Positions 30,498 to 44,161 of a stretch of DNA of 64,000 nt are shown in pieces. The stretch is from NCBI RefSeq assembly GCF_000332135.1, contig NZ_KB235896.1, positions 2,181,403 to 2,245,402 of the forward strand, in the 5' to 3' direction. Every line of letters begins with the position of its first letter. The first letter of the stretch is position 1. A program made the position numbers and the translations under genes. Below the pieces are notes generated by a model that saw only the letters and a program-made list of their open reading frames with translations, made no database searches and was not told the origin of the DNA. This DNA comes from Anabaena sp. PCC 7108 (GTDB lineage Bacteria > Cyanobacteriota > Cyanobacteriia > Cyanobacteriales > Nostocaceae).

Positions 30498-32486
30498 TTA
30501 AAACCTTTGACCTAAGCCAATATGTACTCGGCTATCTCCTTGGTCATTAATTCCATAATCAGCCCGAATTAAGCCCAAAGGTGAGTCAACCCGCACTCCA
30601 GCACCATAACCAAAACCATTTCCTGGCTTACCACGCACACCCGCCGGATCTCCTAAAACTGTATCACCAGAACCTAAGTCGGAAGCAAAATCAGCAAATA
30701 GTACACCCCCAGCAATAGGGAAAATGGGAAACCGATATTCAGCAGAAGCTAACACATAACTACGACCACTACCGACCTTTCCAGAATCATAGCCGCGGAC
30801 TGAATTAGAACCACCTAAGTTGAAGGTTTCATAAGGTGGTAAATCCCCAACCACAGTACCAGCTTGGAGATTTAACGCAAATACTTGTGGCTGTTTGCTG
30901 TTAAATAATTTAACGGGCATATACTGACTATAGTTGCCTCGGAGACGATTCATGCTAATTTGACCATTACCAACAGGTATAGATTGTTCAGTGCTGAAAG
31001 TTAAAATAGAACCTTGGGTAGGTTTAGCAGGGTTATCGCGTTCGTCTTTAGTAGCTGAGAAAGATACAGTAGTCAGGTCATCAATTCCCGTTCCACTGAA
31101 TGATAAGGAGTTTTTGTTGGCATCATTTGGGGTAATATTACCTTGGCGATCGCTGATAGTAGTACGAGTGTAGTTAAGTCCTACAGAAGCATCCCAACCA
31201 TCTGTTTTTTGTTGAAGACTGACACTACCGCCAATTCTTCCTTCACGGACTTTATCGTCATTTTCTAGCCTAATATCATCATCAAAAGTATCCGAAAGTT
31301 CTCGTCTTCGGAAGGTCTTGATGTTGTAACCAAGGCGATTAGGGTTAGTTGCCCGGTAGGGACTGGTAAAATTAGTATTAAAAAGTATATCTTGTCTATT
31401 TACTTCAACATTTGCGGCCAAAGTATCATTAACACCGCCTACATTTTGATCTCTATAACTTAAGATGACTGACAGCCCATCATCAGCATTGTAACCGCCG
31501 CCCAAGTTAACTGAACGCGCCCCAATTTCCTTGAGTTCATATATCAAATCTAATTTTGTTGCATCTCCTTCAAAAGCGATATTGACGGTTTGAAATAAAC
31601 CCAATTTATATAAAGTTTGGACATCTTGCTGGGCTAAATTGTTTTGAAAGACTTTACCTGGTTGTAACTTCAGTTGCTGTTTCAGAAAATCCTCTTTAGT
31701 ACGTCCCTTGACTGGTTTCCCATTGCTATCAAGGTTTTGTCCCTCGTCATTAACAAAGCGAAATTTAATCTCACTTACTAAACCTTCAGCTACATTGACA
31801 GTGAGGACACCTTGGCGGTTGGGTTGAATCGATAGTACCCTAGCTAGGGTATAACCATTATCGGTATACCACTGGTTAATTTGTTTGACTGTTTGTTGTA
31901 GCCTGACTGGACTAATATCTTTACCAATCTGAGATTGAAAATTTTCTAAGGCTACTTTATGGGTGAGAACCTTCGCACCAGAGAGTTGCAGGGCTTGGAC
32001 TACTATTGGTTTTACTTGATATACTACATTTAAGCCCGTGGGCGTAAAGCTGCTGTTGACGGTAGCACTAGCAAATAAGCCAGTATCTAAAATTGCGGTT
32101 ACATCTGTTTGGAGTTGGTTTTGACTGGTATCCCCACCTACTTGGGTTTTAATAGCTTTGCTGATAATCTGCTCTAATTCGGGGTTAGCGCCAATTATCT
32201 GGATATTGGTAGCGGTAACTACTAAGTTTCTGTCGGTTGGAGTATTATTATTTACACTTGTTGACACAACCACTCGCTCTGGGGCAAATTCCATAGCAAA
32301 TGTAGTTTCTGGAGATGTTAGGGTTTCTAGCTGTGTGGGCTGGATCTCTACAAATGGTACTACTACAACATCTGTGGCTGTATTGGTTTGTTCCTCTTGA
32401 TTTGTAGTTGCAGCAGTTGCTTGCTGAGTGACATTACTAGCTGCTACAGTAGCTAATGTAAAAATTGCCGCAGAAGAAAGTCGCAT
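30498..32486 (-). CDS. Omp85/BamA-family outer-membrane protein
   Basis: 662 aa. A signal peptide (about 1-25, ending QQATA) and a Thr-rich linker precede three POTRA-like periplasmic domains (about 100-330, e.g. VVQALQLSGAKVL and LNQWYTDNGYTLA-type strands). A 16-strand surface-antigen barrel fills about 335-662. The barrel contains the Omp85 lid-loop motif SVRGYDSG and ends in GLGQRF, the C-terminal aromatic signature of outer-membrane barrels. Omp85 proteins insert or translocate outer-membrane proteins. Cyanobacteria keep several paralogues, and at this length it is likely one of the smaller ones rather than the main BamA/Toc75 homologue. ATG start. Confidence 0.9.
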   Translation of the reverse strand: MRLSSAAIFTLATVAASNVTQQATAATTNQEEQTNTATDVVVVPFVEIQPTQLETLTSPETTFAMEFAPERVVVSTSVNNNTPTDRNLVVTATNIQIIGANPELEQIISKAIKTQVGGDTSQNQLQTDVTAILDTGLFASATVNSSFTPTGLNVVYQVKPIVVQALQLSGAKVLTHKVALENFQSQIGKDISPVRLQQTVKQINQWYTDNGYTLARVLSIQPNRQGVLTVNVAEGLVSEIKFRFVNDEGQNLDSNGKPVKGRTKEDFLKQQLKLQPGKVFQNNLAQQDVQTLYKLGLFQTVNIAFEGDATKLDLIYELKEIGARSVNLGGGYNADDGLSVILSYRDQNVGGVNDTLAANVEVNRQDILFNTNFTSPYRATNPNRLGYNIKTFRRRELSDTFDDDIRLENDDKVREGRIGGSVSLQQKTDGWDASVGLNYTRTTISDRQGNITPNDANKNSLSFSGTGIDDLTTVSFSATKDERDNPAKPTQGSILTFSTEQSIPVGNGQISMNRLRGNYSQYMPVKLFNSKQPQVFALNLQAGTVVGDLPPYETFNLGGSNSVRGYDSGKVGSGRSYVLASAEYRFPIFPIAGGVLFADFASDLGSGDTVLGDPAGVRGKPGNGFGYGAGVRVDSPLGLIRADYGINDQGDSRVHIGLGQRF

Positions 32487-32917
32487 AATTAGTATTGATT
32501 AACTTAATTAACTCAGTCAGCAGTCAAGTCAACTACTAGGGATAATATGTAGTTCCCGTACCTGTAGATAAACAGACTATCAATTGTAATTTTTTGTTTC
32601 TTGTCAATTTTTATTGCTGACCTGCAAGATACTTGATGAGTATTTATATCTAGAAAATTTTTACTAGATTAAATTTGGGCTTACCTGGTAATTTACAATA
32701 CTTACAATATCTATGCTATTTTCTGTAACCTGGGTTTCCCTTCAACCGCACCTAAAAACCAAGGCTTTTTAAAATTTGGCGAAGGTATTGGAACCACCAG
32801 AGCTTATTTTATTATCCCAGATTTTTGCCAAGCTTACCTCTCTTAGTGCTATTCATAATGCTTCTACAGCCGTTTAACCCTCGTAATTTGGATATATTAT
32901 TCTTAAATACTTAAAAA
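32487..32917. other. Intergenic region with reduced MITE copy
   Basis: 431 bp between the Omp85 promoter side and the 3' end of the TPR gene. A third, internally deleted copy of the 29-188 element lies at about 32714-32789. It has a left part ATTTTCTGTAACCTGGGTT and a right end ACCAAGGC...AATTTGGCGAAGGTATTG. No gene is supported. Confidence 0.5.
32714..32789. repeat. MITE-like element, short copy 3
   Basis: About 76 bp. It shares the left TTTTCTGTA..TGGGTT and the right CAAGGCTTTTTAAAATTTGGCGAAGG with the copies at 29-188 and 16221-16426 but lacks their central core. Confidence 0.6.
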
Positions 32918-34300
32918 CTACTCTAAACCAAATACTAGCTTAATTGCAGCTTGCATTGCCATCCTACCATTCATACTGCGCCAAGGTGGAATTATCATCA
33001 GTCCTTTTATTGCTAACAATATTCCCCAGGCTTTGTACCAAATTTTATCACGTCTCCAATAATTATTAGCTGTGGCCATTGTCACTAGTCCTTTATCTTC
33101 TAAAGAATTTGATTTTGTGGCAAGTGACTGAGCGATATTCAGATATAAAAGTGATTCCTGGTGATTTTGTAAGTAACTATAGCAAACTGATATATTCACA
33201 GCACTTATAACCAGATAGCCTTCAACATTCAATTGCTGCATTATCTCTAATGCTTTTTGAAAATATGGCAAAGCCTGTTGATATCGTTTCAATTTATAAC
33301 AATAAAGTACACCCAAGCCATTTAATGTTCTTATTTTACTATATTTATCACCCATTTCATCTGTAACTATTAATGCTTCTTGTATATACAAACTAGCCTG
33401 ATCAGGTTGTTTTAACATCACATAGCATTGTCCCAAAATTTCTAATGCTGAATATTTACCACGTATATCATTGCTGTTTTTACAAATCTCTAATTGTCGA
33501 AGAAGATATATTAATGCTTGATCATATTGACCACGATTCAAATATATTTGACTGATATTATTAAGACAAATACTTTCTATTTCCTGGTTGTCCAATTTAC
33601 AAGCTATCTCTAGTGCTTGTTTTAGATAATTTAATCCTTTTTGTTGATAATTTTTTTTACCTTGATTTAATTCTAATATATGTAAAGCATACCCTAAAAA
33701 ACTAAGAGCATAACTTTCTTGTTGCCTATCCCCAATTTCACGAGCAATATCTAATTGTTGCTGGTAAAAAAAGATCTCTTCAGACATATTATTTTTAATA
33801 TGTTCTATATCTCCAAAACCACCTAAAGCGAGTGCTTCTGCTTGGCGATTATTTATTAAACGAGCAAATTTTAGTAATTCTTGATAGTAATTAAGAGACT
33901 GAGTATAATCACTAAGATTATAGCAAGCTCTACCTAATCCATTTAAACAAATAATATCATAATCAGAATTTACCTTTCCTAAAAGTGCTTGATATAGTTC
34001 AATTTGTTCTCGATAGTAACCCCAAATTCGTAATTGTTCATGAAGTGGTTTAGATGTATAACAAAAAGATAAAACATAAGCGGCTTTTTGCCATTCTGAA
34101 ACTTCACAAAGATTACGGAAAACGCGCAAATAACGGTCTATTTTTTTGATATTTTTAGCGTTGTCTGGTTCTTCATCTTCCAGTGTTAGGAAATATTTAA
34201 TAGCAACATATACATCAAGATCGTTTAATGGAATCAGAGTCAAATTAATATCTATGTCTAATTCCTGATATAATTTTTGTCCTATAGTTAAATTTGACAT
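32918..34300 (-). CDS. Tetratricopeptide repeat protein, partner of NB-ARC ATPase
   Basis: 460 aa. From about residue 105 to 400 it is a run of TPR helical pairs with an A-L/Y-x-L/F-G spacing (e.g. LNGLGRACYNLSDYTQSLNY, LEILGQCYVMLKQPDQASLY, LNGLGVLYCYKLKRYQQALP), about 8 repeats. The first 100 residues are helical and the last 50 carry an amphipathic segment (WGILLAIKGLMIIPPW). No enzymatic domain is seen. It lies 31 nt downstream of the NB-ARC gene on the same strand. In many STAND proteins ATPase and TPR sensor are one chain, so I infer a split two-subunit system. Confidence 0.82.
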   Translation of the reverse strand: MSNLTIGQKLYQELDIDINLTLIPLNDLDVYVAIKYFLTLEDEEPDNAKNIKKIDRYLRVFRNLCEVSEWQKAAYVLSFCYTSKPLHEQLRIWGYYREQIELYQALLGKVNSDYDIICLNGLGRACYNLSDYTQSLNYYQELLKFARLINNRQAEALALGGFGDIEHIKNNMSEEIFFYQQQLDIAREIGDRQQESYALSFLGYALHILELNQGKKNYQQKGLNYLKQALEIACKLDNQEIESICLNNISQIYLNRGQYDQALIYLLRQLEICKNSNDIRGKYSALEILGQCYVMLKQPDQASLYIQEALIVTDEMGDKYSKIRTLNGLGVLYCYKLKRYQQALPYFQKALEIMQQLNVEGYLVISAVNISVCYSYLQNHQESLLYLNIAQSLATKSNSLEDKGLVTMATANNYWRRDKIWYKAWGILLAIKGLMIIPPWRSMNGRMAMQAAIKLVFGLE

Positions 34301-34331
34301 AATTTTGACATAATAATTAAATGTAATTAAA

Positions 34332-35768
34332 CTATGTAAATAAAGGCTGGGTAAATAAACTCTGACGATGTTCTAAAGCTACACTGCGAATTAAATTATG
34401 TAGTCCTAAAACACGATTATGTTCATGATTAATGGAAGTTTCTACTAAAAATCTAGCAAATAAATCATCTAATATCTTTTGTTTTTGTTCTTGACTATAA
34501 ACCTCGTTTTTCAAACGTTGAATATAAATATCTAGCTGTAAAAACCAACCGCTATCTTGCACAGGACGAGGATATTTAGCAGCTACACAAATCAAAAAAT
34601 AAGCATCAAGATTTTGATTTTTTAATCGTTTAAAAACTGCATCTAATCTCCGCCGATAAACTTCAGCCCTAATTTTTCTGGTTAATTTATGCAGTTTCCA
34701 ATCATCATTTTCACCTTCTGATTTTAAACCAGATTCTGCTTCTGCTAAATGCTGTTCTACCAACTCAATTTCATTACCAACATTTTGCCAAAAAGCATAA
34801 GCATTATTACCAAAAGATTCCACAATTTCACCACTGACTACACGCAAAGTTAATGGATGTCCTTTATATATCTTGGCAATTCGCAATAGAATTAATTTAT
34901 CTTCTGATTCTAAATCAACATCTAAACCTGCTTTTTCAAATAAAGAAATTTGTTCATCTTCTAGTAAACCATCTAAAATTTCACGATGATAGGAATTAGG
35001 GTAACGAGAAGCTAAAGTTTCAATTTTACTCGGTAAATCTTGAGAAGTTACAATTAATCTACTTTCAGAAGATTCTATTGTCAAAAAATCTTCAAAAAAC
35101 TTTGCCCACCATTCATCCTCAAAATCTCCCCAACCATCTTCACTTTCTGTTAATAATGCTTCTGAAGAATCAATTAAAATTAAAATACGTTCCTCACGTA
35201 AATGGTTCACTAATCCTTTTAGAATCGTTCCTGTTTGCCTGTCTTCAATCAATAAACCTAATTCTTCTAACCACCTTCCTGCAATATTAACAAAGTTTCT
35301 GGGACTATCATCACTATCAAAATTTACTCTTAAAATCTTGGTAAATCGGGTTTGAATATCATCAGCAATCCTTTCAGCAAGGGCTGTTTTACCAATTCCC
35401 GTAATTCCTAACAATAGCAATAACCGACAATTTTCACGCAGCTTTTTTGTTAATGAGCTAACCAGTTTTTTGCGCCCTACCCAACCATCATCATAGACAG
35501 GCCAATCTGTGATTTTTTCAGGTACAAGTTCAACAATATTATCCCAACTTTCGCGCCAATTGGGAATTTCCAAGGCATCACAATAGGTTTCAGCCGTGTC
35601 TCTAATTACACCATCACCATCGTGAAATTTTGTAAAGGTTTGACGATGAATGCATCTTTTATTTGCTTCACAGAATCCATATATCGATTCATAGTCTTTC
35701 AATCCTTCTTTGACTAATCCATGCCCTATCTTTGTTAGCCTATAAAGTTTTGGTTTATTTCTGGCCAT
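34332..35768 (-). CDS. NB-ARC (STAND) ATPase
   Basis: 478 aa from the ATG at 35768, chosen because AAGGGGTGAG precedes it; an ATG at 35798 has no such site. The N-terminal ~85 residues are a small helical domain of the kind cyanobacteria fuse to NB-ARC (YRLTKIGHGLVKEGLKDYES). Next come the ATPase Walker A LLLLGITGIGKTALAERI (about 123-140), Walker B RILILIDSSEALL, and sensor-like SRLIVTSQDLP. A winged-helix tail includes LHNLIRSVALEHR. The TPR gene follows immediately. The upstream side holds promoter block A of the divergent zinc-ribbon gene. Inference: a signal-sensing ATPase switch, of conflict or regulatory type. Confidence 0.85.
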   Translation of the reverse strand: MARNKPKLYRLTKIGHGLVKEGLKDYESIYGFCEANKRCIHRQTFTKFHDGDGVIRDTAETYCDALEIPNWRESWDNIVELVPEKITDWPVYDDGWVGRKKLVSSLTKKLRENCRLLLLLGITGIGKTALAERIADDIQTRFTKILRVNFDSDDSPRNFVNIAGRWLEELGLLIEDRQTGTILKGLVNHLREERILILIDSSEALLTESEDGWGDFEDEWWAKFFEDFLTIESSESRLIVTSQDLPSKIETLASRYPNSYHREILDGLLEDEQISLFEKAGLDVDLESEDKLILLRIAKIYKGHPLTLRVVSGEIVESFGNNAYAFWQNVGNEIELVEQHLAEAESGLKSEGENDDWKLHKLTRKIRAEVYRRRLDAVFKRLKNQNLDAYFLICVAAKYPRPVQDSGWFLQLDIYIQRLKNEVYSQEQKQKILDDLFARFLVETSINHEHNRVLGLHNLIRSVALEHRQSLFTQPLFT

Positions 35769-35814
35769 CTCACGCTCACCCCTTGTTACTGAGAGCATGA
35801 TACATGATTAGTCA

Positions 35815-35905
35815 GCGATCGCACAAGCAAACGTACAAATAAAGCACAATTAACTAGTGACTTAGGTAGATGGCAGATTTTATACTCTTGATTATACAGT
35901 TTAAT
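35815..35905 (+). promoter_or_regulatory. Shared promoter block, copy A
   Basis: Starts GCGATCGCACAAGCAAACGT and continues with near-identity to copies at 36969 and 39347. It contains -35 GTGACT at 35857-35862, an 18-nt spacer and -10 TATACT at 35881-35886. The zinc-ribbon gene starts 116 nt after the block begins. The conserved part upstream of -35 (CACAAGCAAACGTACAAATA) is a candidate activator site. Confidence 0.75.
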
Positions 35906-35930
35906 TTGACTACTAAGAGTTATAAAAACT

Positions 35931-36146
35931 ATGACTAAATATAATTCTTGTCCGGGTTGTGGATATAACAAAAAGAGTGGTTTATTAACAGGGGCGTATT
36001 TTAATATTTATAAGTGTAAAGAGTGTAAACATAAGTTCTGCTCGAACTGTGGACGCGTTAATGTAGGTTTAATTGGTAGCACTGGATTTTGTCCTAAATG
36101 TGGTTCAGAGGGATATAAAGATGGTGAATGTTATTTAATAAGATAA
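35931..36146 (+). CDS. Small zinc-ribbon protein
   Basis: 71 aa with eight cysteines in four CxxC pairs: CPGC (7-10), CKEC (29-32), CSNC (37-40) and CPKC (54-57), the last followed by GSEG. This implies two zinc sites. There is no other domain and no membrane span. It could be a nucleic-acid or protein-binding adaptor; I do not recognise a named family. It is driven by promoter block A and is followed by a secreted-protein gene 97 nt downstream, possibly in the same transcript. Confidence 0.75.
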   Translation: MTKYNSCPGCGYNKKSGLLTGAYFNIYKCKECKHKFCSNCGRVNVGLIGSTGFCPKCGSEGYKDGECYLIR

Positions 36147-36243
36147 CAAGGATATTTTGAATAAAAACAGCAATTTTATGAGTTATTTCAGATAAACCGT
36201 AAATGAAGCTGTTTATGGAATCAAATAGAAAGGAGAGTTTATT

Positions 36244-36915
36244 ATGTTTATTTTCCCACACATCAAAAAACTACGAACATTTATATTACTGGCTGTTATA
36301 TCTTTCCTAGTAATGATTTTTTGTACTTCCGTGTTAGCGAAAGATGTAGAAAAACATGGAAATTTAATAGTTAGAAATGATAATTCTGGAAAAAAATATA
36401 GTTCAATAAATACCTTAACGACAGCAGGTGAATATTCAATCAGTTACCCTTCTTCTTGGGAAAATGTATATTTAAGTTTGTGGCACTACTTTTCTTCTTT
36501 CTCTAAAACAGATATGAGGTTCACCACTTGGGAAAGAATAAGTTCTTCTTGCAATCGTTGTGCGAGAATTGAGTTACGAATTTTTACCAATGATGAACTG
36601 ACGTTTAAGTTATTTGATAGCAATTCACAAAAATTACAAGTAATATCTTTCGGTGATGCAGTTAAATCATTTGTAAAGATGAGAGAAAGTACCATACCAG
36701 GGCATAAAATTATTTCCCAGCAAAAGTTAAATATACATGGAAGACAGGCAGTAAGATTATATTCAAAAAAGGCAATTGAGGTCTTAATTGATATGGGAAA
36801 TAATACAACTACAGTTATAGTAGGTTATCTATTGCCTAATGAAGAATCAAGAGAATGGAGTTCAATTCAGGAAGAAATAAAATTTATACAAGAGTCATTT
36901 AGACCCCCAAAATAA
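36244..36915 (+). CDS. Exported protein of unknown function
   Basis: 223 aa. The N-terminal signal peptide or anchor FILLAVISFLVMIFCTSVLA (13-32) is preceded by basic residues, with a likely cleavage after VLA. The mature part is an alpha/beta domain (SISYPSSWENVYLSLWHYFS, then RIELRIFTNDEL, and a C-terminal IQEEIKFIQESFRPP). It resembles the small PsbP/Mog1-like fold seen in many cyanobacterial exported proteins, but that is only a shape-based guess. A strong AAAGGAGAG site precedes the ATG. Confidence 0.72.
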   Translation: MFIFPHIKKLRTFILLAVISFLVMIFCTSVLAKDVEKHGNLIVRNDNSGKKYSSINTLTTAGEYSISYPSSWENVYLSLWHYFSSFSKTDMRFTTWERISSSCNRCARIELRIFTNDELTFKLFDSNSQKLQVISFGDAVKSFVKMRESTIPGHKIISQQKLNIHGRQAVRLYSKKAIEVLIDMGNNTTTVIVGYLLPNEESREWSSIQEEIKFIQESFRPPK

Positions 36916-36968
36916 AATATGATAAGCTGAAATAATTCTCAATAGGGGCGATAAATAGGATAATTGAG

Positions 36969-37060
36969 GCGATCGCACAAGCAAACGTACAAACAACGCA
37001 CAATTGGCTGGTGACTTGAGCGATCGTCTGATTTTATACTCTTGATTATAAAGCTTGATC
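36969..37060 (+). promoter_or_regulatory. Shared promoter block, copy B
   Basis: Same block as at 35815: GCGATCGCACAAGCAAACGT start, -35 GTGACT at 37011-37016, 18-nt spacer, -10 TATACT at 37035-37040 and the conserved CTTGATTATA after it. It begins 111 nt before the ATG of the DUF4177-like gene. Confidence 0.75.
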
Positions 37061-37079
37061 ATTGAGGGTAGTAAATTTT

Positions 37080-37244
37080 ATGTACAAACAATATTCAGTA
37101 AGTATTGTTGTCACCGAAGAAATTCAAAAAGAATGTAATAGTTATGCAGGAGAGGGTTGGCAACTGGTAACAGCATATATGACTGCTCGTGTAGACTGTT
37201 GTAATAACCGTAAAGAATCAGCAGTTTTGATTTTTGGAAAGTAA
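37080..37244 (+). CDS. DUF4177-like small protein
   Basis: 54 aa. The pattern YKQYSVSIVV...NSYAGEGWQLVTAYM...SAVLIFGK fits DUF4177, a short beta-alpha-beta domain of unknown function with a conserved E/NGW. ATG at 37080 has GAGGGTAG at a good distance; an in-frame start at 37062 lies inside the leader. The stop overlaps the next start (TAATG), so it is translationally coupled to the membrane protein that follows. Confidence 0.7.
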   Translation: MYKQYSVSIVVTEEIQKECNSYAGEGWQLVTAYMTARVDCCNNRKESAVLIFGK

Positions 37245-37924
37245 TGATGTGGATACATAGGAAACCAGAACCAGTCACTTTATTAGGTATTGGTTCACTA
37301 AGTAATGGTACAAGCAATAAGAAGGTTATCAAATTTTTATCAGAATTGCAAAGAATACCCTATTTTGCTCATCATCCATCATGCAAGTATTACCATAACC
37401 ATTTAATTTGGCTTGGTAAAGTACCTTTATGTATGGGATGTACAATGATGTCTTTAGGTGTAATTATCGGTTCACTACTAATACCTACTTTCAAGTTATC
37501 TCAACTACCCTTTGAATATGTATTAATTATTGGAGTATTGCTTTATATACCCGCAGTAATTCAAACTAAAGTGCAAATTAGGTCTTACAAATTGCTATCC
37601 AGAACCTTACTAGGGATATCTGTTGTTTTTCTGATTTATGCGGGACTATGGTTAACCCCTTGGTCACTTATTGGCGTTATTTTGCGAATTGGTTTTGTGG
37701 GTATTTTTTTAGCTGTGTGGCAGATCACCTTACGTTTAAGGGTGCAGCGTGCAAAATCTCCTTGTGATAGATGTCCTCAAGGTCGTTTTCCTATTTGTGG
37801 CTATACAAGTGGTCGTATTCACAAATTATCTGAAAAATATTTGCAAACTTCTGATCATGATAATCATGAAATGGATGAAATTATCAAAGCCTTTCAAAGT
37901 CTTGCTAATTACTATACCTTGTAG
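37244..37924 (+). CDS. DUF2085-like integral membrane protein
   Basis: 226 aa. The segment HHPSCKYYHNHLIWLGKVPL followed by CMGCTMMSLGVIIG matches the DUF2085 pattern (Cys/His-rich turn then CxxCTG-like motif entering a membrane helix). About four membrane spans follow (near 65-85, 90-108, 120-140 and 145-165). A cytoplasmic tail has a second Cys set (SPCDRCPQGRFPICGY). The family has no firm function; the cysteines could bind metal. It overlaps the previous gene by one base, so the pair is an operon under promoter block B. Confidence 0.75.
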   Translation: MMWIHRKPEPVTLLGIGSLSNGTSNKKVIKFLSELQRIPYFAHHPSCKYYHNHLIWLGKVPLCMGCTMMSLGVIIGSLLIPTFKLSQLPFEYVLIIGVLLYIPAVIQTKVQIRSYKLLSRTLLGISVVFLIYAGLWLTPWSLIGVILRIGFVGIFLAVWQITLRLRVQRAKSPCDRCPQGRFPICGYTSGRIHKLSEKYLQTSDHDNHEMDEIIKAFQSLANYYTL

Positions 37925-38030
37925 GTTTTAGCTAGGTTTATTAAGTAATATTTAATAAATAAAACCTTGATAAGTTACATAAATTTGAACAGCAAATGGT
38001 TAATTGTTCTAAATGTGGAGATTGCTAAAT

Positions 38031-38645
38031 ATGGAAATGATGTTGTTATCTATAATTTACCTTATTGCCGGTCTTTGTTTCCTATTTTTTTCTTTAGGTC
38101 TTGCTTTTATTGTTTTGTCGCCAGTATTATTACCAATTTTATCTATTTTTTCATTTATTTTTGATAAATTTAAGGAAGTTCATCGAGAAAATCGGCAAAA
38201 AGAAGAAAATCAAAAACGTAATGCAGAGAATTCTCGCGTTGCTCTCCTATATAATGCAAGAGTCTTAGAACTTGAAAACTTTGTTGGGAATAATTATGGT
38301 TCAGATGGTTTTTTCAGAAACTTTAGTATGAGTGAATCAGAGAAAATATTTTCCAAACCATTCCTTGAAAGTGGTGCCAAATGGCTAGATTATGATGGAC
38401 ATGAATGGGGATTTTCTTCTAAGAGTTATGATAAATTAGGAATTTATATAAGTAGAGATAAATATAGAAAAACTTATTTTACTGGCGAGAAAAAATCAGA
38501 AGTTTTGCACAGCCATTATATAACAGATAGTAGTCCTCGTATATATTTAAACAAACAAACTGATGGAAGTTGGTGTTTCACAATTAAATTTTCTGAATGG
38601 CTACCAGAAGATTTATCATATCGGTCGTATTGCAAGTCCTATTAG
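38031..38645 (+). CDS. Membrane-anchored N-terminal part of a probably frameshifted GUN4-like protein
   Basis: 204 aa from the ATG at 38031 (GGAGA site 9 nt upstream). Residues ~5-45 are one or two membrane spans (IIYLIAGLCFLFFSLGLAFI). A charged coiled stretch comes next (KFKEVHRENRQKEENQKRNA), then a soluble domain. The natural-looking text WLPEDLSYR is followed by a short tail and stop. In the +1 frame the sequence continues smoothly (YHIGRIASPIRWKRAIDEIL) into a GUN4-like domain. A single-base shift near 38605-38625 would join the two into one ~385-aa protein. It could be a sequencing error, a pseudogene or true overlapping genes. Confidence 0.55.
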   Translation: MEMMLLSIIYLIAGLCFLFFSLGLAFIVLSPVLLPILSIFSFIFDKFKEVHRENRQKEENQKRNAENSRVALLYNARVLELENFVGNNYGSDGFFRNFSMSESEKIFSKPFLESGAKWLDYDGHEWGFSSKSYDKLGIYISRDKYRKTYFTGEKKSEVLHSHYITDSSPRIYLNKQTDGSWCFTIKFSEWLPEDLSYRSYCKSY

Positions 38646-39195
38646 ATGGAAAAGAGCAATTGATGAAATTTTAAGACCATTAGGGTTAAGTTTTATAATT
38701 TCTAATTTAACTTTGTATGTTGGTTGTGAGACATTAGAACCACAGGAGATAAATCGGTTTCCTTGTGATATTTTAAATAAAATTGATCAACTTTGGACAA
38801 CATATAGTAATGGTCATTTTGGTTTTAGTGTTCAAATGAGTATATATGAAGAGATTAAGCAAAAAAATAACTTGCCGTTACCTTCTGGCTTAGATGTAAG
38901 TGCTAGTAATGAGTTTATTCCTATTACATCTGTAACCTCTTCGCTAGGTTTCAATACAGATAGTATTCTTTCGTTAATTGAAAAATTAGAATGGTCTGAT
39001 TATCGCCCTAATGTTTATCGTGAGACTTATTGGAGAAATGCCAAACACTTTAAATATAATATTAATGCTCCAAAAGGACACCTACCATTTTTATTTAATT
39101 ATGAAGAGGAATTAGACTCATTTGAAGATTGGCATATGTTAAGTATAGAGGATATGACAAGTCTATGGAATCGCCTGAAAAGTTGTAAATATTAA
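38563..39195 (+). CDS. GUN4-like domain protein (C-terminal part, frame-shifted from previous)
   Basis: The frame is open for 210 codons but meaningful similarity starts near 38610. The GUN4 core is clear: FPCDILNKIDQLW, TYSNGHFGFSVQMSIYEEI and KYNINAPKGHLPF. GUN4 domains bind porphyrins and stimulate Mg-chelatase, but cyanobacteria also carry many stand-alone or kinase-fused GUN4 domains of unknown role. The AD-ET-rich first half of the domain is poorly conserved here (CETLEPQEIN). The overlap of 83 nt with the previous frame and the lack of a ribosome site argue for one broken gene. Confidence 0.6.
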   Translation: MEVGVSQLNFLNGYQKIYHIGRIASPIRWKRAIDEILRPLGLSFIISNLTLYVGCETLEPQEINRFPCDILNKIDQLWTTYSNGHFGFSVQMSIYEEIKQKNNLPLPSGLDVSASNEFIPITSVTSSLGFNTDSILSLIEKLEWSDYRPNVYRETYWRNAKHFKYNINAPKGHLPFLFNYEEELDSFEDWHMLSIEDMTSLWNRLKSCKY

Positions 39196-39271
39196 AAGGT
39201 TTTTGAATAATCATCAATCTGGCAGATTTTTGGTATCTATTGGAAACTAAATATAGGATATCTGTAATCTT

Positions 39272-39301
39272 TGTAGAGACGTTCCATGGAACGTCTCTAC
39301 A
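39272..39301. repeat. Perfect 30-nt palindrome after the GUN4-like gene
   Basis: TGTAGAGACGTTCCA followed directly by its exact complement, then TTTTCTC. It can fold as a terminator-like stem for the gene ending at 39195. It is also a known-looking interspersed palindrome of cyanobacteria. Confidence 0.75.
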
Positions 39302-39346
39302 TTTTCTCTAGGAGATATCTAATGAGTCGTACTGACGATAATCACA

Positions 39347-39432
39347 GCGATCGCACAAGCAAACGCACAAATAAAGCACAATAGGCTAATGACTTAGCTA
39401 GATGGCATATTTTATGATTTTCTCAATACAGC
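39347..39432 (+). promoter_or_regulatory. Shared promoter block, copy C
   Basis: Same block as at 35815 and 36969: GCGATCGCACAAGCAAACGC, then AAATAAAGCACAAT, -35 ATGACT at 39389-39394, 18-nt spacer and -10 TATGAT at 39413-39418. It starts 138 nt before the ATG of the PEP-CTERM gene and is the most diverged copy downstream of -10. Confidence 0.72.
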
Positions 39433-39484
39433 TTAATATTTGAAATTTTCTCCCATCATCGTTTCCAAAATTGAGGTAGTAAAC

Positions 39485-40366
39485 ATGAAGACTTTAATCA
39501 AATTAACAACAGCGACTCTTACCTTAGTAGCAATACTAGGAATTACCAAAGATGCCCAAGCATCAACTTTACAAAATGGTTGGAACTACACAATCGACTC
39601 TTTCACAGACTCTACATATCGTACATATCCTGGTAGTCCGACTAGCGTTGGTGGAGGGACATTTGAAATTTATGGTCTAGCAATGAAGGATGATATTGAG
39701 AATAATAAACTTACTTTTGCTCTTAATACAAATTTAGCAAGAGATGGTGCAGTAGTTCCTGTTGCTAATGGATATAGTCATATCGGTTGGGGTGATTTAT
39801 TTATTCAAACTGCTTCGGGATTATTAGGCATTAATTTTACTGATGCTAATGATTCTGCTGCTAGTTTAGGAGTATATCAAGTCGCCGCTACAAAAAGTGT
39901 TGCTGCTGCTAACGACGGTTGGTCTACTAATAGTTCATACACTAATTTTGTAGCTAGTAAAGGTGGAAATCCGACTTTGGGAGATTTAGCTCAAAATCAA
40001 TCACCTTTTGGTAATACTACTAATAGTGTAATTGCTGCTGGTCAGTCGATTGGTAATCTTCTTTCTGCTGATTTAACTGGTCTAAATTTTGGAAATTTTG
40101 GTGCTTTTGGCTCTCAAACGTTTGGATTTAGTATTGATCGTTCTTTAGTATCTCCAGGAGCTATCACAGCTTGGATATTTGAAGAGTGTTTTAACGATGG
40201 AATAGCAATGGCAGCAAATATTTCTGAACTACCTCCCGAACCCCCTAAAGAGCCTCAAAATGTTCCTGAACCTTCTACTTTAATAGGCATGATTGCATTA
40301 GCTGCAATGGGTGTATTTTCTGCTAAAAATAGAAAGAATGATCAGCAGGTTGCAGTTAATACTTGA
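39485..40366 (+). CDS. PEP-CTERM exosortase-dependent surface protein (XDD3-like)
   Basis: 293 aa. Signal peptide LIKLTTATLTLVAILGITKDAQA is at residues ~4-26. The mature domain starts GWNYTIDSFTDS, with FEIYGLAMKDD, as in the cyanobacterial XDD3-type exosortase substrates (family name from memory). The C-terminal sorting tail is VPEPSTLIGMIALAAMGVFS plus a basic stretch. Exosortase is expected to cleave at PEP and transfer the protein to the envelope or matrix. The exosortase gene is not in this window. ATG at 39485 with GAGGTAG site; an in-frame upstream ATG at 39440 would bury the signal peptide. It is expressed from promoter block C and ends in a strong terminator. Confidence 0.88.
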   Translation: MKTLIKLTTATLTLVAILGITKDAQASTLQNGWNYTIDSFTDSTYRTYPGSPTSVGGGTFEIYGLAMKDDIENNKLTFALNTNLARDGAVVPVANGYSHIGWGDLFIQTASGLLGINFTDANDSAASLGVYQVAATKSVAAANDGWSTNSSYTNFVASKGGNPTLGDLAQNQSPFGNTTNSVIAAGQSIGNLLSADLTGLNFGNFGAFGSQTFGFSIDRSLVSPGAITAWIFEECFNDGIAMAANISELPPEPPKEPQNVPEPSTLIGMIALAAMGVFSAKNRKNDQQVAVNT

Positions 40367-40393
40367 TTAAAGTTTTTCAATTTTCTTACATTT

Positions 40394-40440
40394 AGCGATC
40401 GCTGCTCTAGCCATGTTGACTTTGCGATCGCTTTTTTTTT
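40394..40440 (+). terminator. Terminator of the PEP-CTERM gene, built from HIP1 octamers
   Basis: AGCGATCGC at 40394-40402 pairs with GCGATCGCT at 40424-40432, then a run of eight T at 40433-40440. The stem uses two HIP1 octamers in opposite arms. Confidence 0.8.
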
Positions 40441-40502
40441 AAAGATTAATAAATTCAACATAAATTCGATAAATAAAATAAATTTATATTGCTATCAGTC
40501 TT

Positions 40503-40833
40503 ATGTATAAATATCAAGATTTTACTATTCATAATTGGCAAAAAAATGATCACTCATCTGTTATATATATCATTCAATCTATTAGATTAAAATATGGTGT
40601 TATAGTTCCAGAATATTATGATCAAGATACCCAAAATATCATAGACATAGAAAAATGTTATTTAGAAACTGGAGGATTATTTTGGGTAGTAGAAAAACAA
40701 AATAAAATATTTGGATGTGTGGCATTTTATCCATACAAAGGAGTAGTAAAAGGGGCAGAAATTAAAAAAATATATCTATTACCACAAGCAAGAGGTATAG
40801 GTTTAGGAAAGTTCTTATTACAACAATTAGAAC
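40503..40833 (+). pseudogene. GNAT acetyltransferase, 5' part (disrupted by IS4-type element)
   Basis: The first ~110 codons of a GNAT-family N-acetyltransferase. Acetyl-CoA-binding motif A is complete (IKKIYLLPQARGIGLGKFLLQQLE). The frame then runs into the insertion sequence and stops. The missing 3' part is at 42105-42289. Removing the element and one copy of the 9-bp duplication restores one continuous ~170-aa frame. Confidence 0.85.
40825..40833. repeat. Target-site duplication (left) of IS4-type element copy 1
   Basis: AATTAGAAC, repeated exactly at 42105-42113 on the other side of the element. A 9-bp duplication fits IS4-type transposition. Confidence 0.9.
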
Positions 40834-42104
40834 CTGAAGGGGGGACAAAATCAACTAAAAGACTGACTGTATAAGGTTCATAGCTCTTAGACCTTGTTGA
40901 TAATACTTGCGCTTATTAGGATTAAGTCTCATTAATTGGGCTACTAAAGGTTGACAATTATCCATAAAACTGATCCAAGTATAACCATATAGACCAATAT
41001 AAAAACTGCTATGTCGTCTGGTACTACGGCTGTTTTCTTTAACTCTTCCGACATATTCTTGTACTCCCTTGCGTTTAATTTGTTGTCCCTGAATTGTGGC
41101 TGATGTGTAGGCAATAGCTATTAATAAAATTAGTGAAATCAACCGTTCTCCCGTGACTTTCGTATCTTCTAAATTATAACCTCCTGTTTTAAAATCTCTA
41201 AACATTTCCTCAATATCAAAGCGTTGTTTATAAGCTGTAATAGCTGCTCCTAACTCTGGTAAATCTGTGAGAATAAACCATCCTTCTTTTGGTGCTATAC
41301 CCTGGAGTTTCCTTTTCCATTTACAGGCTAAATTAAAATATCCAAAACCTCTAAGTTTCGTAACTTTAACTCCCGGCAAAAATAACGATAATCCCGGTGC
41401 TAATCCCAAATCTTTCAACTCTAACCAAATATCTGATTCTTTTTTGACAAATTCATTCTTTCTTAACCTTAAACAAAAGCTTAAACCTTGCTGCTTCAAC
41501 CAGTTCGCTAATTTGACAGAACAGAATTCTCTATCTCCTAATACACATATTTTATATTTTTTTACTATCGCTAAAATCTCGGTTAACGCTTCTGTTTGTT
41601 GTTTGAGATTGCTATTTCCTTTTTGCTTCAATAATTCAAAATATATCGGTATTGCTCGTTTCTCCCACACCATGCTGATCATTAATAAATTTATACATGA
41701 CCATTTAGTCCGGTCTATTACTAGATATATTGTTTCTTTCTCTTGAAGGTATGTCTCTAACCAGACTTCAATTATGGGTAACCATATCTTCTTTATTGTT
41801 AATTTTGGCAATGATAAAAATCTTTGTATTTTTCTGCGTCTACTTTCAAATTTTATGGGTATTGGTAAGGCATTCGCTAAACTTTCTAGACTTACCTGTT
41901 TAATTGACTGTAAAATCTGAAGCAGGATTTTTAACAATAGGTATTCTGCTAGACTTAATTGACTTCTGAGATGGTTTTGATAGAATGTTGGTATCATTTT
42001 CATTAGATAGGTCTTATTGACAATACTTGACCTATCTTTTTTTACCATAAATCGTCACATTCTTTACATTGCCTTACTTTCAGCCTTGTTTGTCTCCCCT
42101 TCAG
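40834..42104 (-). mobile_element. IS4-family insertion sequence, copy 1 (intact, 1271 bp)
   Basis: Ends are inverted repeats: CTGAAGGGGGGACAAA at left and the complement of CTGAAGGGGAGACAAAC at right. It is flanked by a 9-bp direct repeat AATTAGAAC and carries one transposase gene. A nearly identical copy lies at 57940-59210: I find two base differences (40944 and near 41584). It inserted into the GNAT gene. Confidence 0.92.
40855..42048 (-). CDS. IS4-family transposase
   Basis: 397 aa DDE transposase. First Asp lies in IYLVIDRTKW, second in ICVLGDREFCSV. The IS4 signature YKQRFDIEEMFRDFK has Y-x2-R-x3-E-x6-K, containing the catalytic Glu. A beta-strand insertion domain lies between the second Asp and the Glu. 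It is full length with no internal stop, so probably active. It fills nearly the whole element, 21 nt from the left end. Confidence 0.93.
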   Translation of the reverse strand: MVKKDRSSIVNKTYLMKMIPTFYQNHLRSQLSLAEYLLLKILLQILQSIKQVSLESLANALPIPIKFESRRRKIQRFLSLPKLTIKKIWLPIIEVWLETYLQEKETIYLVIDRTKWSCINLLMISMVWEKRAIPIYFELLKQKGNSNLKQQTEALTEILAIVKKYKICVLGDREFCSVKLANWLKQQGLSFCLRLRKNEFVKKESDIWLELKDLGLAPGLSLFLPGVKVTKLRGFGYFNLACKWKRKLQGIAPKEGWFILTDLPELGAAITAYKQRFDIEEMFRDFKTGGYNLEDTKVTGERLISLILLIAIAYTSATIQGQQIKRKGVQEYVGRVKENSRSTRRHSSFYIGLYGYTWISFMDNCQPLVAQLMRLNPNKRKYYQQGLRAMNLIQSVF

Positions 42105-42289
42105 AATTAGAACTAGAAATTACAGCTAGAGGATTTCAAACTATTTGGATTAAAACTGTTAGCCTTTTCACTGAAGCTATTTTATTATATGAAAATAGTG
42201 GATATATGAAATTTTTAGATTTAGAAACTCCTAAAATTGGATATATTTACTATAAAAATATTTCTGAATCAATGTCCTCAAAAATTTAA
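42105..42289 (+). pseudogene. GNAT acetyltransferase, 3' part
   Basis: Continues the reading frame interrupted at 40833: ELEITARGFQTIWIKTVSLF and FTEAILLYENSGYMKFLDLE, the usual C-terminal GNAT helix and strand (ALxLYExxGF-like motif). The first 9 nt are the duplicated target site. It has no start of its own. Confidence 0.82.
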
Positions 42290-42802
42290 TATCCTCAATC
42301 AAAAACATCAATCACAAAATCTTATAAATCCCTAAATCTTATAAATCCTGTTTGCGGAGCATGGCATACAGCACTTCCCGGTGTTATGAAGTACAAGAAC
42401 CCCACCCCCAACCCCCGCAAGCGATGAGGGGGCTAAGATGTACCTCATAAGAGCGGAAACCGCTGCAAGCCATTTCTGACAAAAAAGCTATAATACAATA
42501 TATTTTGTAACCATAAAGATATTTGGGTTCGTATTGATAATCAACCAAATCTGGCGGCATTTTGCTGGAGTTGCGGTTTAAGGCTGCTAGATATTCATTG
42601 ACGAATCGCTCTCTTAGATGTGCGACTATGTTACGGTGGCAGCAATTTCCTCATCCGTCCATACCTGTCTATTAAGATCAATATTTAACAAGATATTGGT
42701 GTGCATTTAATAGAATACTTGCGTGCTTAATTTTATAAGCCGATGCTTTGCCGAAAGTCTACAATTTAAATCTAAAATCTAAAATTTAAAATTTAAAATC
42801 TT
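42290..42802. other. Intergenic region with palindromic repeat
   Basis: About 510 bp between the GNAT remnant and the LpxB-related gene. It holds the palindromic repeat at 42389-42450 and, close to the next gene, an AT-rich run of TTAAATCTAAAATCTAAAA-type units that precedes the ATG. No gene is supported. Confidence 0.45.
42389..42450. repeat. Interspersed palindromic repeat, copy a
   Basis: Ends ATGAAGTACAAG and GATGTACCTCAT are inverted repeats; inside is CCCCCGCAAGCGATGAGGGG. A shorter version recurs at 51698-51737. Confidence 0.7.
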
Positions 42803-44161
42803 ATGCGTGATTTATCCCAATTAAAGCGGGTTGCATCGGCAGCGACTAAGTCTCCTTTGCAGTTACTAGTTTTAAGTAATGGTCATGGAGAAGATATCAT
42901 TGCTGTCCGTATTTTGCAGGAACTGCAACAACTTTCTTCTCCACCAGAGATATTTGCTTTACCTATAGTGGGTGAAGGACGTGCTTACCAAAATTTAAAT
43001 ATTCCCTGTATTGGTTCGATACAGACTATGCCATCTGGTGGCTTTATTTATATGGATAGTCGCCAGTTAATGCGAGATGTCCGTGGCGGTTTGGTGCAAC
43101 TGACTTGGAAGCAAATTCAAGCTGTTCGCGGTTGGGTGAGTGATCAAAAAAAATTGGGTAATAAAAAAGCTATTTTAGCGGTGGGAGATATTGTACCGTT
43201 GTTGTTTGCGGCGATGAGTGGTGCTAATTATGCTTTTATTGGCACGGCCAAATCTGAATATTATGTTAGGGATGAGGTGGGTTTGTTACCCAGAAAGTCA
43301 AAATCGGCCAGTTGGGAAAACTTTTCTGGTTCCATTTACCATCCTTGGGAAAGATGGTTAATGAGTCGTCGTCTTTGTCGTGCGGTGTTTCCTAGAGATG
43401 CCCTGACTACGGAAATTTTAAAAAAATGGCCAATTCCGGCTTTTGATTTAGGTAATCCCATGATGGATGGTTTGGAGCCGACGGTGAGAACCAAAAAATT
43501 TTATCATGGTCATGCTGAAGAGGAAGAACTAGTTCGTCCTTTGATTGTGACTCTACTTCCCGGTTCTCGTGAGCCAGAGGCTTATAGTAACTGGGAAATC
43601 ATGATGGTTGCTGTGTCTGGGTTGATGGCTAGTTTTCGGGAACGAGATTCGATTTTACCATCGGCTGGGACTGTGATTTTTTTAGGTGCGATCGCTCCTG
43701 GTTTAGATTGCCAGATATTAGCTCAAACTTTGCAAATCCAGGGTTGGTGTTCCTGCGCCGAATCTCCTATCCCACTTGCTGATGCTAATATTTTGACTTT
43801 TAAGCAAAGAAATGGCTACTTAGTTCTCAGTCAACAAGCTTATAATGACTGCTTGCATTTAGGAGATTTAGCGATCGCTATGGCAGGGACAGCAACAGAA
43901 CAATTTATTGGTTTAGGCAAACCAGCGATCGCTATTCCAGGCCATGGTCCACAATATAACCCTGCTTTTGCTGAGGCTCAAAGTCGTCTTTTAGGACCAT
44001 CTCTGATTTTAGTAGACCAACCCACACAAGTTGCCCAAGCAGTAAAATCCCTACTCAAAAATCCCGATAGGTTACAAATAATTGCTGAAAACGGTGTCCA
44101 GCGAATGGGGAGGTCAGGTGCAGCAAGACGTATTGCTGAATGTTTGCAAGATCGATTTTGA
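42803..44161 (+). CDS. Lipid-A-disaccharide synthase-related protein (TIGR03492 type)
   Basis: 452 aa. A glycosyltransferase-like protein conserved in cyanobacteria and plastids. It is related to LpxB but distinct from the LpxB of the lipid A pathway. Visible motifs: LLVLSNGHGEDIIAVRIL at the N-terminus, AILAVGDIVPLLFAAMSGAN near 135-155, FIGTAKSEYYVRDE, and VTLLPGSREPEAYSN, the GT-B-like second domain opening. Near the end, ATEQFIGLGKPAIAIPGHGP looks like the nucleotide-sugar site. The substrate is unknown. ATG at 42803; it converges with the regulator gene, 10 nt between stops. Confidence 0.88.
   Translation: MRDLSQLKRVASAATKSPLQLLVLSNGHGEDIIAVRILQELQQLSSPPEIFALPIVGEGRAYQNLNIPCIGSIQTMPSGGFIYMDSRQLMRDVRGGLVQLTWKQIQAVRGWVSDQKKLGNKKAILAVGDIVPLLFAAMSGANYAFIGTAKSEYYVRDEVGLLPRKSKSASWENFSGSIYHPWERWLMSRRLCRAVFPRDALTTEILKKWPIPAFDLGNPMMDGLEPTVRTKKFYHGHAEEEELVRPLIVTLLPGSREPEAYSNWEIMMVAVSGLMASFRERDSILPSAGTVIFLGAIAPGLDCQILAQTLQIQGWCSCAESPIPLADANILTFKQRNGYLVLSQQAYNDCLHLGDLAIAMAGTATEQFIGLGKPAIAIPGHGPQYNPAFAEAQSRLLGPSLILVDQPTQVAQAVKSLLKNPDRLQIIAENGVQRMGRSGAARRIAECLQDRF

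Follow-up and report, generated by a model that had tools for sequence, protein, structure and literature searches.

In a stretch of 64,000 nucleotides (nt) from the genome of the cyanobacterium Anabaena sp. PCC 7108 (contig NZ_KB235896.1, positions 2,181,403 to 2,245,402; henceforth the window), three copies of a block of roughly 90 nt precede three gene units, one of which encodes an exosortase-dependent surface protein with a PEP-CTERM signal. These are very likely cis-regulatory promoter blocks. Comparison across two cyanobacterial families further leads us to favor, on balance, the reading that the array of direct repeats within each block is the operator of the neighboring pair of genes for a STAND ATPase and a TPR protein, with repression included as a sub-case of such a role.

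Three copies of a promoter-like block

An earlier note on this DNA had reported blocks at 35815, 36969 and 39347, and a direct-repeat search recovered them, far beyond chance, as a single family of three 93-nt copies (35813-35905, 36967-37059 and 39345-39437), with copies 2 and 3 being 80% and 84% identical to copy 1. A BLAST search with copy 1 against the organism's own genome (5,886,741 bases in 3 contigs) returned the three copies at E-values of 1.5e-42, 2.2e-22 and 8.4e-20; no fourth copy was present among the 40 matches, the next best of which had an E-value of 0.48. A sequence-only model of the three blocks gave the blocks themselves 93-98 bits, and nothing else listed from five genomes of the genus exceeded 17.4 bits; the four genomes other than that of the window had no block and nothing above 16.2 bits. 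The shared sequence was also as the note had given it: GCGATCGCACAAGCAAACG is identical in all three copies, copies 1 and 3 both carry AAATAAAGCACAAT unaltered, with AAACAACGCACAAT at this place in copy 2, and the hexamers GTGACT, GTGACT and ATGACT are followed after 18 nt by TATACT, TATACT and TATGAT, respectively. Each block is co-directional with the gene behind it and lies just upstream of the start codon, and the blocks look like the duplicated regulatory site plus core promoter that had been proposed.

In their common register the blocks show GCACAA, then 12 nt on G(T/C)ACAA, then 11 nt on GCACAA, and finally (T)(A/G)(A/G)TGACTT, which includes the -35-like hexamer (Table 1). A triple of 6-mers at 11/12-nt steps with an equal number of shared columns arose in 17, 6 and 0 of 5000 single-base shuffles of blocks 1, 2 and 3, counts that are a guide only, as the three copies are non-independent. 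When up to two mismatches were allowed, the three-repeat motif was found at one further genomic site, which equals the yield of a reversed-pattern control (1). As there are only three genomic copies and a single near-match at the level of the control, the array points to a dedicated local regulator. The phased three-repeat array, the STAND gene diverging from block 1 and the single block of the relatives described below did not figure in the earlier note.

Table 1. Features of the block-bearing locus in window coordinates
Feature	Coordinates	Strand	Details
TPR protein, candidate sensor half	32918..34300	-	TPR_12 E 1.8e-27
STAND/NB-ARC ATPase, candidate regulator	34332..35768	-	start at MARN, conserved in relatives; open reading frame open to 35798
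Possible weak STAND promoter	35797..35826	-	-35 TTGTGC, 18 nt, -10 TATCAT
Block 1	35815..35905	+	between STAND and zinc-ribbon genes
Block 1, repeats	35821-35826, 35833-35838, 35844-35849		GCACAA, GTACAA, GCACAA
Block 1, core	35857-35862, 35881-35886		-35 GTGACT; 18 nt; -10 TATACT
Small zinc-ribbon-like protein, 71 amino acids	35931..36146	+	sub-threshold Pfam matches only
223-amino-acid protein without family match	36244..36915	+	hydrophobic N-terminus by eye
Block 2	36969..37059	+	before DUF4177-like/DUF2085-like pair
Block 2, parts	36975, 36987, 36998; 37011-37016; 37035-37040		repeats; -35; -10
DUF4177-like + DUF2085-like gene pair	37080..37924	+	both sub-threshold in Pfam
Block 3	39347..39437	+	before XDD3/PEP-CTERM gene
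Block 3, parts	39353, 39365, 39376; 39389-39394; 39413-39418		GCACAA x3; -35 ATGACT; -10 TATGAT
XDD3-family exosortase-dependent surface protein with PEP-CTERM	39485..40366	+	NF041930 137.6 bits, cut-off 80 (NCBIfam)

The block follows one STAND gene across two families

A model built from five blocks was used to search 217 genomes of the same family, of which 15 matched at E <=0.01 and four at E <=1e-14. The four strong cases are the window's own genome with three blocks, G107 with two, and G120 and G094 with one each (relatives are denoted by our genome labels). The remaining 11 are weak matches (E 4.6e-4 to 0.0076), and the two inspected among them, G163 and G109, have no block. The genome G018 gave seven identical weak matches (model positions 23-81) scattered over its sequence, which probably represent an unrelated repeat family of that genome. 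Partial BLAST matches in G006, G007, G014 and G055 were short exact stretches without an array and were put down to chance. Orthologs of the window's STAND ATPase with at least 78% identity occur in exactly the four block-bearing genomes out of the 217, the next STAND being only 51% identical; similarly, XDD3 proteins of at least 70% identity occur in the same four, with all others at or below 45%.

The locus of G107 (L063) is collinear with that of the window: a TPR gene, the STAND gene, a block orthologous to block 1, the zinc-ribbon gene, two small open reading frames, a GUN4-domain gene and a GNAT acetyltransferase gene are followed by two opposite-strand open reading frames, a second block and the XDD3 protein. 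Its zinc-ribbon protein, 93% identical to that of the window, is the only relative of the latter, which gives two of 145 genomes including the window's own. In both G094 and G120 the STAND gene and an XDD3 gene diverge from a single block, with the GNAT gene beyond the XDD3 gene.

Outside the family, 388 genomes from the order yielded only two further matches at E <=0.001 (G444 and G456), both without the three-repeat array, and 388 genomes from the class yielded the array in three genomes of another family, G758, G582 and G665. G582 and G665 likewise have a single block, placed between a STAND gene (73% identical) and a divergent XDD3 gene, the surface protein of G582 scoring 183.6 bits for this family. 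Counted from the -35 hexamer, the repeats are here at -44, -32 and -21 instead of -34, -22 and -11, i.e. the entire array is displaced by 10 nt with its internal spacing intact and the -35/-10 distance still 18 nt; this is about one helical turn, as would be expected if the face of the helix matters. G758 has two full blocks some 6-8 kb from its STAND gene (67% identical), one preceding a gene for a protein that resembles type IV pilins (Pilin_GH, E 6.2e-7) and the other a gene for a small, apparently secreted protein. The -10 of the pilin block is ambiguous, at 16 or 18 nt with 4/6 matches either way. This genome has a third array, which shows the register GCAA, ACAA, ACAA at 11-nt steps and lacks a -35; it precedes the STAND start (ATG 1244) by about 60 nt.

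In total, seven genomes from four genera and two families contain 11 full blocks plus one array of repeats alone. In all seven the locus includes a STAND gene (67-81% identical in the relatives) and a TPR gene, the latter beside the former in 6/6 relatives, and an array precedes the STAND start by about 50-100 nt, on the corresponding side of the gene in the six relatives. All 11 full blocks are co-directional with the gene behind them, with 25-192 nt from the -10 to the start codon. The ACAA of repeat 2 is present in 12/12 arrays and that of repeat 3 in 11/12 (ACAG in G665), while repeat 1 has ACAA in six, GCAA in four and ACCA in one, and is missing in one. Of the 11 full blocks, nine have 18 nt between the -35 and the -10, one has 17 and, as noted above, one has 16 or 18.

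The pattern of divergence indicates which parts of the block are maintained. At four-fold degenerate sites the STAND genes of G107 and G094 are 61% and 58% identical to that of the window. Over the 31 nt spanning repeats 2-3 and the -35, block 1 is 87% identical to its counterparts in both genomes, and block 3 is 84% identical to the XDD3 block of G107 and 74% to the block of G094; the segment TAGTGACTT is 89-100% identical in comparisons of the window with these two. The earlier note had placed strong conservation across the whole of the -35 to -10 region; this was not borne out, as the spacer is the least conserved part of the block, none of 12 spacer columns being invariant in seven blocks. 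Since the identities exceed those of the four-fold sites and the spacer columns vary, the repeats and hexamers are kept while the intervening DNA drifts. The octamer GCGATCGC in front of the blocks, known as HIP1, had likewise been included in the site. It is common throughout the window (27 sites vs 0.21 expected) and, because it flanks only the ATPase-side array of G758 among the nine arrays of relatives that were printed, it does not belong to the conserved core. Scans for RNA elements found no Rfam family in 32000-43000, viral contigs had no exact match of the conserved 24-mer, and plasmids had no match for 35700-36150.

History of the block

The block stands before an XDD3 gene in G107, G094, G120, G582 and G665, and extra copies before other genes are seen in the window, G107 and G758. 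Because four genomes of two families have a single block between the ATPase and a divergent XDD3 gene, this was probably the ancestral layout, and the simplest order of events would be that the block was subsequently copied as other genes came in. The DUF4177/DUF2085 pair also occurs in G081 without a block, as would be expected if the pair had arrived as a unit and come to lie behind a copy of the switch. Block 2 is closer to the zinc-ribbon block of G107 (87%) than to block 1 (80%), and its spacer, GAGCGATCGTC, is that of the G107 zinc-ribbon block rather than that of block 1. The first 19 nt are common to the window copies and are seen in no relative; GCGATCGCACAAGCAAACG being common to all three and absent from relatives, the comparison indicates that they have exchanged sequence and been homogenized.

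The STAND ATPase as candidate regulator

Block 1 sits between divergent genes, with the STAND and TPR genes to its left on the minus strand and the zinc-ribbon-like gene to its right. The STAND protein has an NB-ARC NTPase domain (PF00931, E 1.5e-8, 34.7 bits vs a cut-off of 23.5), and its N-terminus is predicted to form a Cro/C1-like helix-turn-helix (HTH), with a model of pLDDT 75.0 that matches HipB, DdrO, SinR and other Cro/C1-type proteins in structural searches at modest scores. The N-terminus of a homolog matches HTH_26 at E 0.0061, and related STANDs in G001 and G028 have a LuxR-type HTH in this position. No solved structure was found for the STAND protein by sequence search; a match of the N-terminal profile to cytochrome c nitrite reductase (E 0.005) was taken as chance. 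More broadly, STAND relatives (L104-L127) combine the same core with varied N-termini, namely Cro/C1-like and LuxR-type HTH domains and, by eye, TIR-like and nucleosidase-like ones, as if effector domains had been swapped among them. A further gene, for a putative Uma2-like protein, is found beside the STAND-TPR pair in several genomes (L035 5102-5947, L097 4779-5645 and L147 4136-4897).

A TPR or superhelical sensor is not part of the STAND chain: the TPR protein is encoded by a separate gene in the window, where it begins 32 nt downstream of the STAND gene, and in G107, G094, G120, G582 and G665. For this reason we class the ATPase as working like a NOD-TPR activator rather than as one. There was also no OmpR-like DNA-binding plus BTA Pfam match, as would be seen in a SARP, among the matches listed for the STAND protein, and Cro/C1-type proteins dominate the structural list.

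From the directly observed sequence, copies, conservation, linkage and layout we infer promoter activity, binding by the STAND-TPR pair, activation rather than repression, and a signal. Three direct repeats in helical phase would form an operator upstream of a conserved promoter, and the block so composed would belong to a local and apparently self-contained regulatory locus. The STAND ATPase, with its HTH-like domain and NB-ARC NTPase, probably binds the repeats together with its TPR partner, and is most likely an activator that recruits RNA polymerase to the adjacent promoter. Given the array about 50-100 nt upstream of its start, it probably also controls its own gene. The G758 STAND-side array, kept without a -35, counts in favor of the STAND-TPR operator. 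The operator-promoter unit would have been copied, so as to stand now before the zinc-ribbon gene and the DUF4177/DUF2085 pair and, in G758, before the genes for the pilin-like and small secreted proteins.

A possible promoter for the STAND gene itself overlaps the start of block 1 on the opposite strand (Table 1). Its -35, TTGTGC, is complementary to repeat 1, and the layout recurs with TTGTAT and TATTAT in G107, G094 and G120; its consensus is weak, and the consensus promoter scan missed it.

Weighing the alternatives

The consensus promoter scan showed no excess in the region (37 found vs 29.1 +/- 7.1 in shuffles); a bare consensus match is therefore unremarkable and the case rests on conservation. 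There are also two counter-examples to the linkage of array and STAND gene. A contig of a Pseudanabaena metagenome-assembled genome has a 72% identical STAND, split in two open reading frames, with no array in 8.2 kb. The other is G150 (L150 4700-8700), where no array accompanies a STAND gene of 38-40% identity and its divergent neighbor, an XDD3-like PEP-CTERM gene some 2 kb away.

The most serious competing explanation, to which we would give roughly one chance in five or slightly better, is that the repeats serve as operator for a regulator whose gene lies elsewhere, for example a response regulator of the OmpR/PhoB type, with the STAND-TPR pair being merely a neighbor or a target. Direct repeats at about 11 nt upstream of a -35 also suit winged-helix response regulators, and the array upstream of the STAND gene could mark it as a target. 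However, for a regulator of broader function one would expect more sites than three copies and a control-level near-match, and the block follows this particular STAND across two families.

Nearly as probable, and overlapping with the preferred reading, is that the STAND-TPR pair binds the array as a repressor, for instance keeping the surface- and small-protein genes silent until a signal arrives. The predicted domain does resemble those of the Cro/C1-type repressors HipB, DdrO and SinR, and an array beside its own start would suit autorepression. Against this, the repeats are upstream of the -35 and do not cover the start or the -35 to -10 region, GTGACT is a weak -35 match of the kind seen in activated promoters, and the 10-nt shift keeps the helical phase towards the polymerase, though none of these points is decisive.

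Less likely still is an unregulated promoter spread by local duplication, the likeness of its copies reflecting recency or gene conversion. The homogenized window copies, with GCGATCGCACAAGCAAACG absent from relatives, and the closeness of block 2 to the zinc-ribbon block of G107 are in line with such spread, but it leaves unaccounted for why the repeats and -35 are kept where four-fold sites are only about 60% identical and the spacer between the hexamers is not, or why repeat spacing is kept even in the arrays shifted by 10 nt. A small dispersed or mobile repeat without promoter role is largely refuted: the locus also holds an IS4-family transposase, yet there are no copies elsewhere in 5.89 Mb, each copy is just upstream of a gene start, all 11 full blocks are co-directional with the gene behind, and blocks lie at matching places in relatives, so that the dispersed repeat away from gene starts, which the earlier note had named as its refuting case, was not what the genome-wide and relatives' searches found.

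Comparison with known regulatory systems

MalT/LuxR-type STAND activators combine an HTH with superhelical sensor repeats and activate from direct repeats; MalT is a single chain with a C-terminal HTH, and the window protein differs from this type in having no LuxR/GerE domain match. PlcR/Rgg-type XRE-TPR activators (structures 3u3w and 5w4n were among the matches) are alike in pairing a Cro/C1-type HTH with TPR sensing; they are not known to contain an ATPase, and differ in that the TPR of the window system is a separate protein.

Further parallels come from STAND-type ATPase activators of Streptomyces. AfsR is described as an activator of the NOD-TPR type whose binding site, two direct repeats of 11 bp, overlaps the -35 (PMC10936776), and the SARP-LAL regulator PimR as binding three heptamers with 4-nt spacers that do not overlap it (PMC5930380). 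On these accounts, both resemble the window system in bringing together an ATPase module, TPRs and a DNA-binding domain with direct repeats about 11 bp apart at or upstream of the -35, and the window layout, with three repeats clear of the -35, is close to that of PimR. Unlike in AfsR and PimR, the HTH-ATPase and the TPR protein are encoded by two genes, the predicted domain is Cro/C1-like rather than SARP, the repeats are of the ACAA type, and surface and small proteins would be the targets. Matching distributions have also served to pair a sigma-54 site, common to the upstream regions of PEP-CTERM genes in Proteobacteria, with its regulators (PMC1569441). As described there, PEP-CTERM genes under the PrsK/PrsR/PrsT system are preceded by a common site that shows the same distribution as the regulators, which include a TPR protein, and our reasoning is of the same kind on a small scale. 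The Prs system differs in its sigma-54 promoter and NtrC-type regulator, the window having a -35/-10-like core, one PEP-CTERM gene and a STAND ATPase as candidate regulator; among the neighboring genes scanned against Pfam there was no response regulator. Control by Zur was also considered, on the ground that ZepA, a PEP-CTERM protein, is described as being under Zur. The open-licence literature searched held no report of this array or of the STAND-TPR gene pair.

Other features of the locus

As to the genes behind the blocks, the PEP-CTERM label of the earlier note stands, the protein scoring above the XDD3 cut-off, while the zinc ribbon, DUF4177 and DUF2085 labels fall below Pfam cut-offs. 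Its suggestion that the blocks link regulators is weak, as the zinc-ribbon and DUF4177-like proteins are not known regulators. Between blocks 2 and 3 the GUN4-domain gene (38013-39195) is in two overlapping frames (38013-38645 and 38563-39195), and in G107 it is one open frame of 260 amino acids. Just upstream of block 3 is a perfect palindrome, GTAGAGACGTTCCATGGAACGTCTCTAC (39272-39301), single-copy in the window, which has a T-rich tail and scored as terminator-like. The GNAT acetyltransferase gene (40503-42289) is split by the IS4-family transposase (40855-42048) and is intact in G107, G094 and G120. A defense reading of the locus was considered and set aside: PADLOC matched the TPR protein to a generic TPR model (E 2.6e-64) and the GUN4 piece to PD-T4-6 (E 4.6e-17), but showed no complete system.

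Implications

The neighboring surface- and small-protein genes probably answer to one local signal. More tentatively, a two-gene STAND system, consisting of a Cro/C1-type HTH-ATPase and a TPR sensor, may run a private, growing regulon whose switch is copied along with incoming genes, possibly in sensing other cells or phage. Cyanobacterial STAND ATPases are many (7 to 44 first-look candidates per genome listed), and few of them have known targets. At this locus a defined operator, a candidate regulator and natural variants of the array, namely single, copied, 10-nt shifted and decayed forms, come together, and it could thereby assign a target sequence to a cyanobacterial STAND ATPase and would put forward a candidate for the regulator of an exosortase-dependent protein in cyanobacteria. 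A further gain would be an example of a surface-protein locus recruiting genes by copying of a switch and, if this is true, gathering new cargo under a single ATP-gated control.

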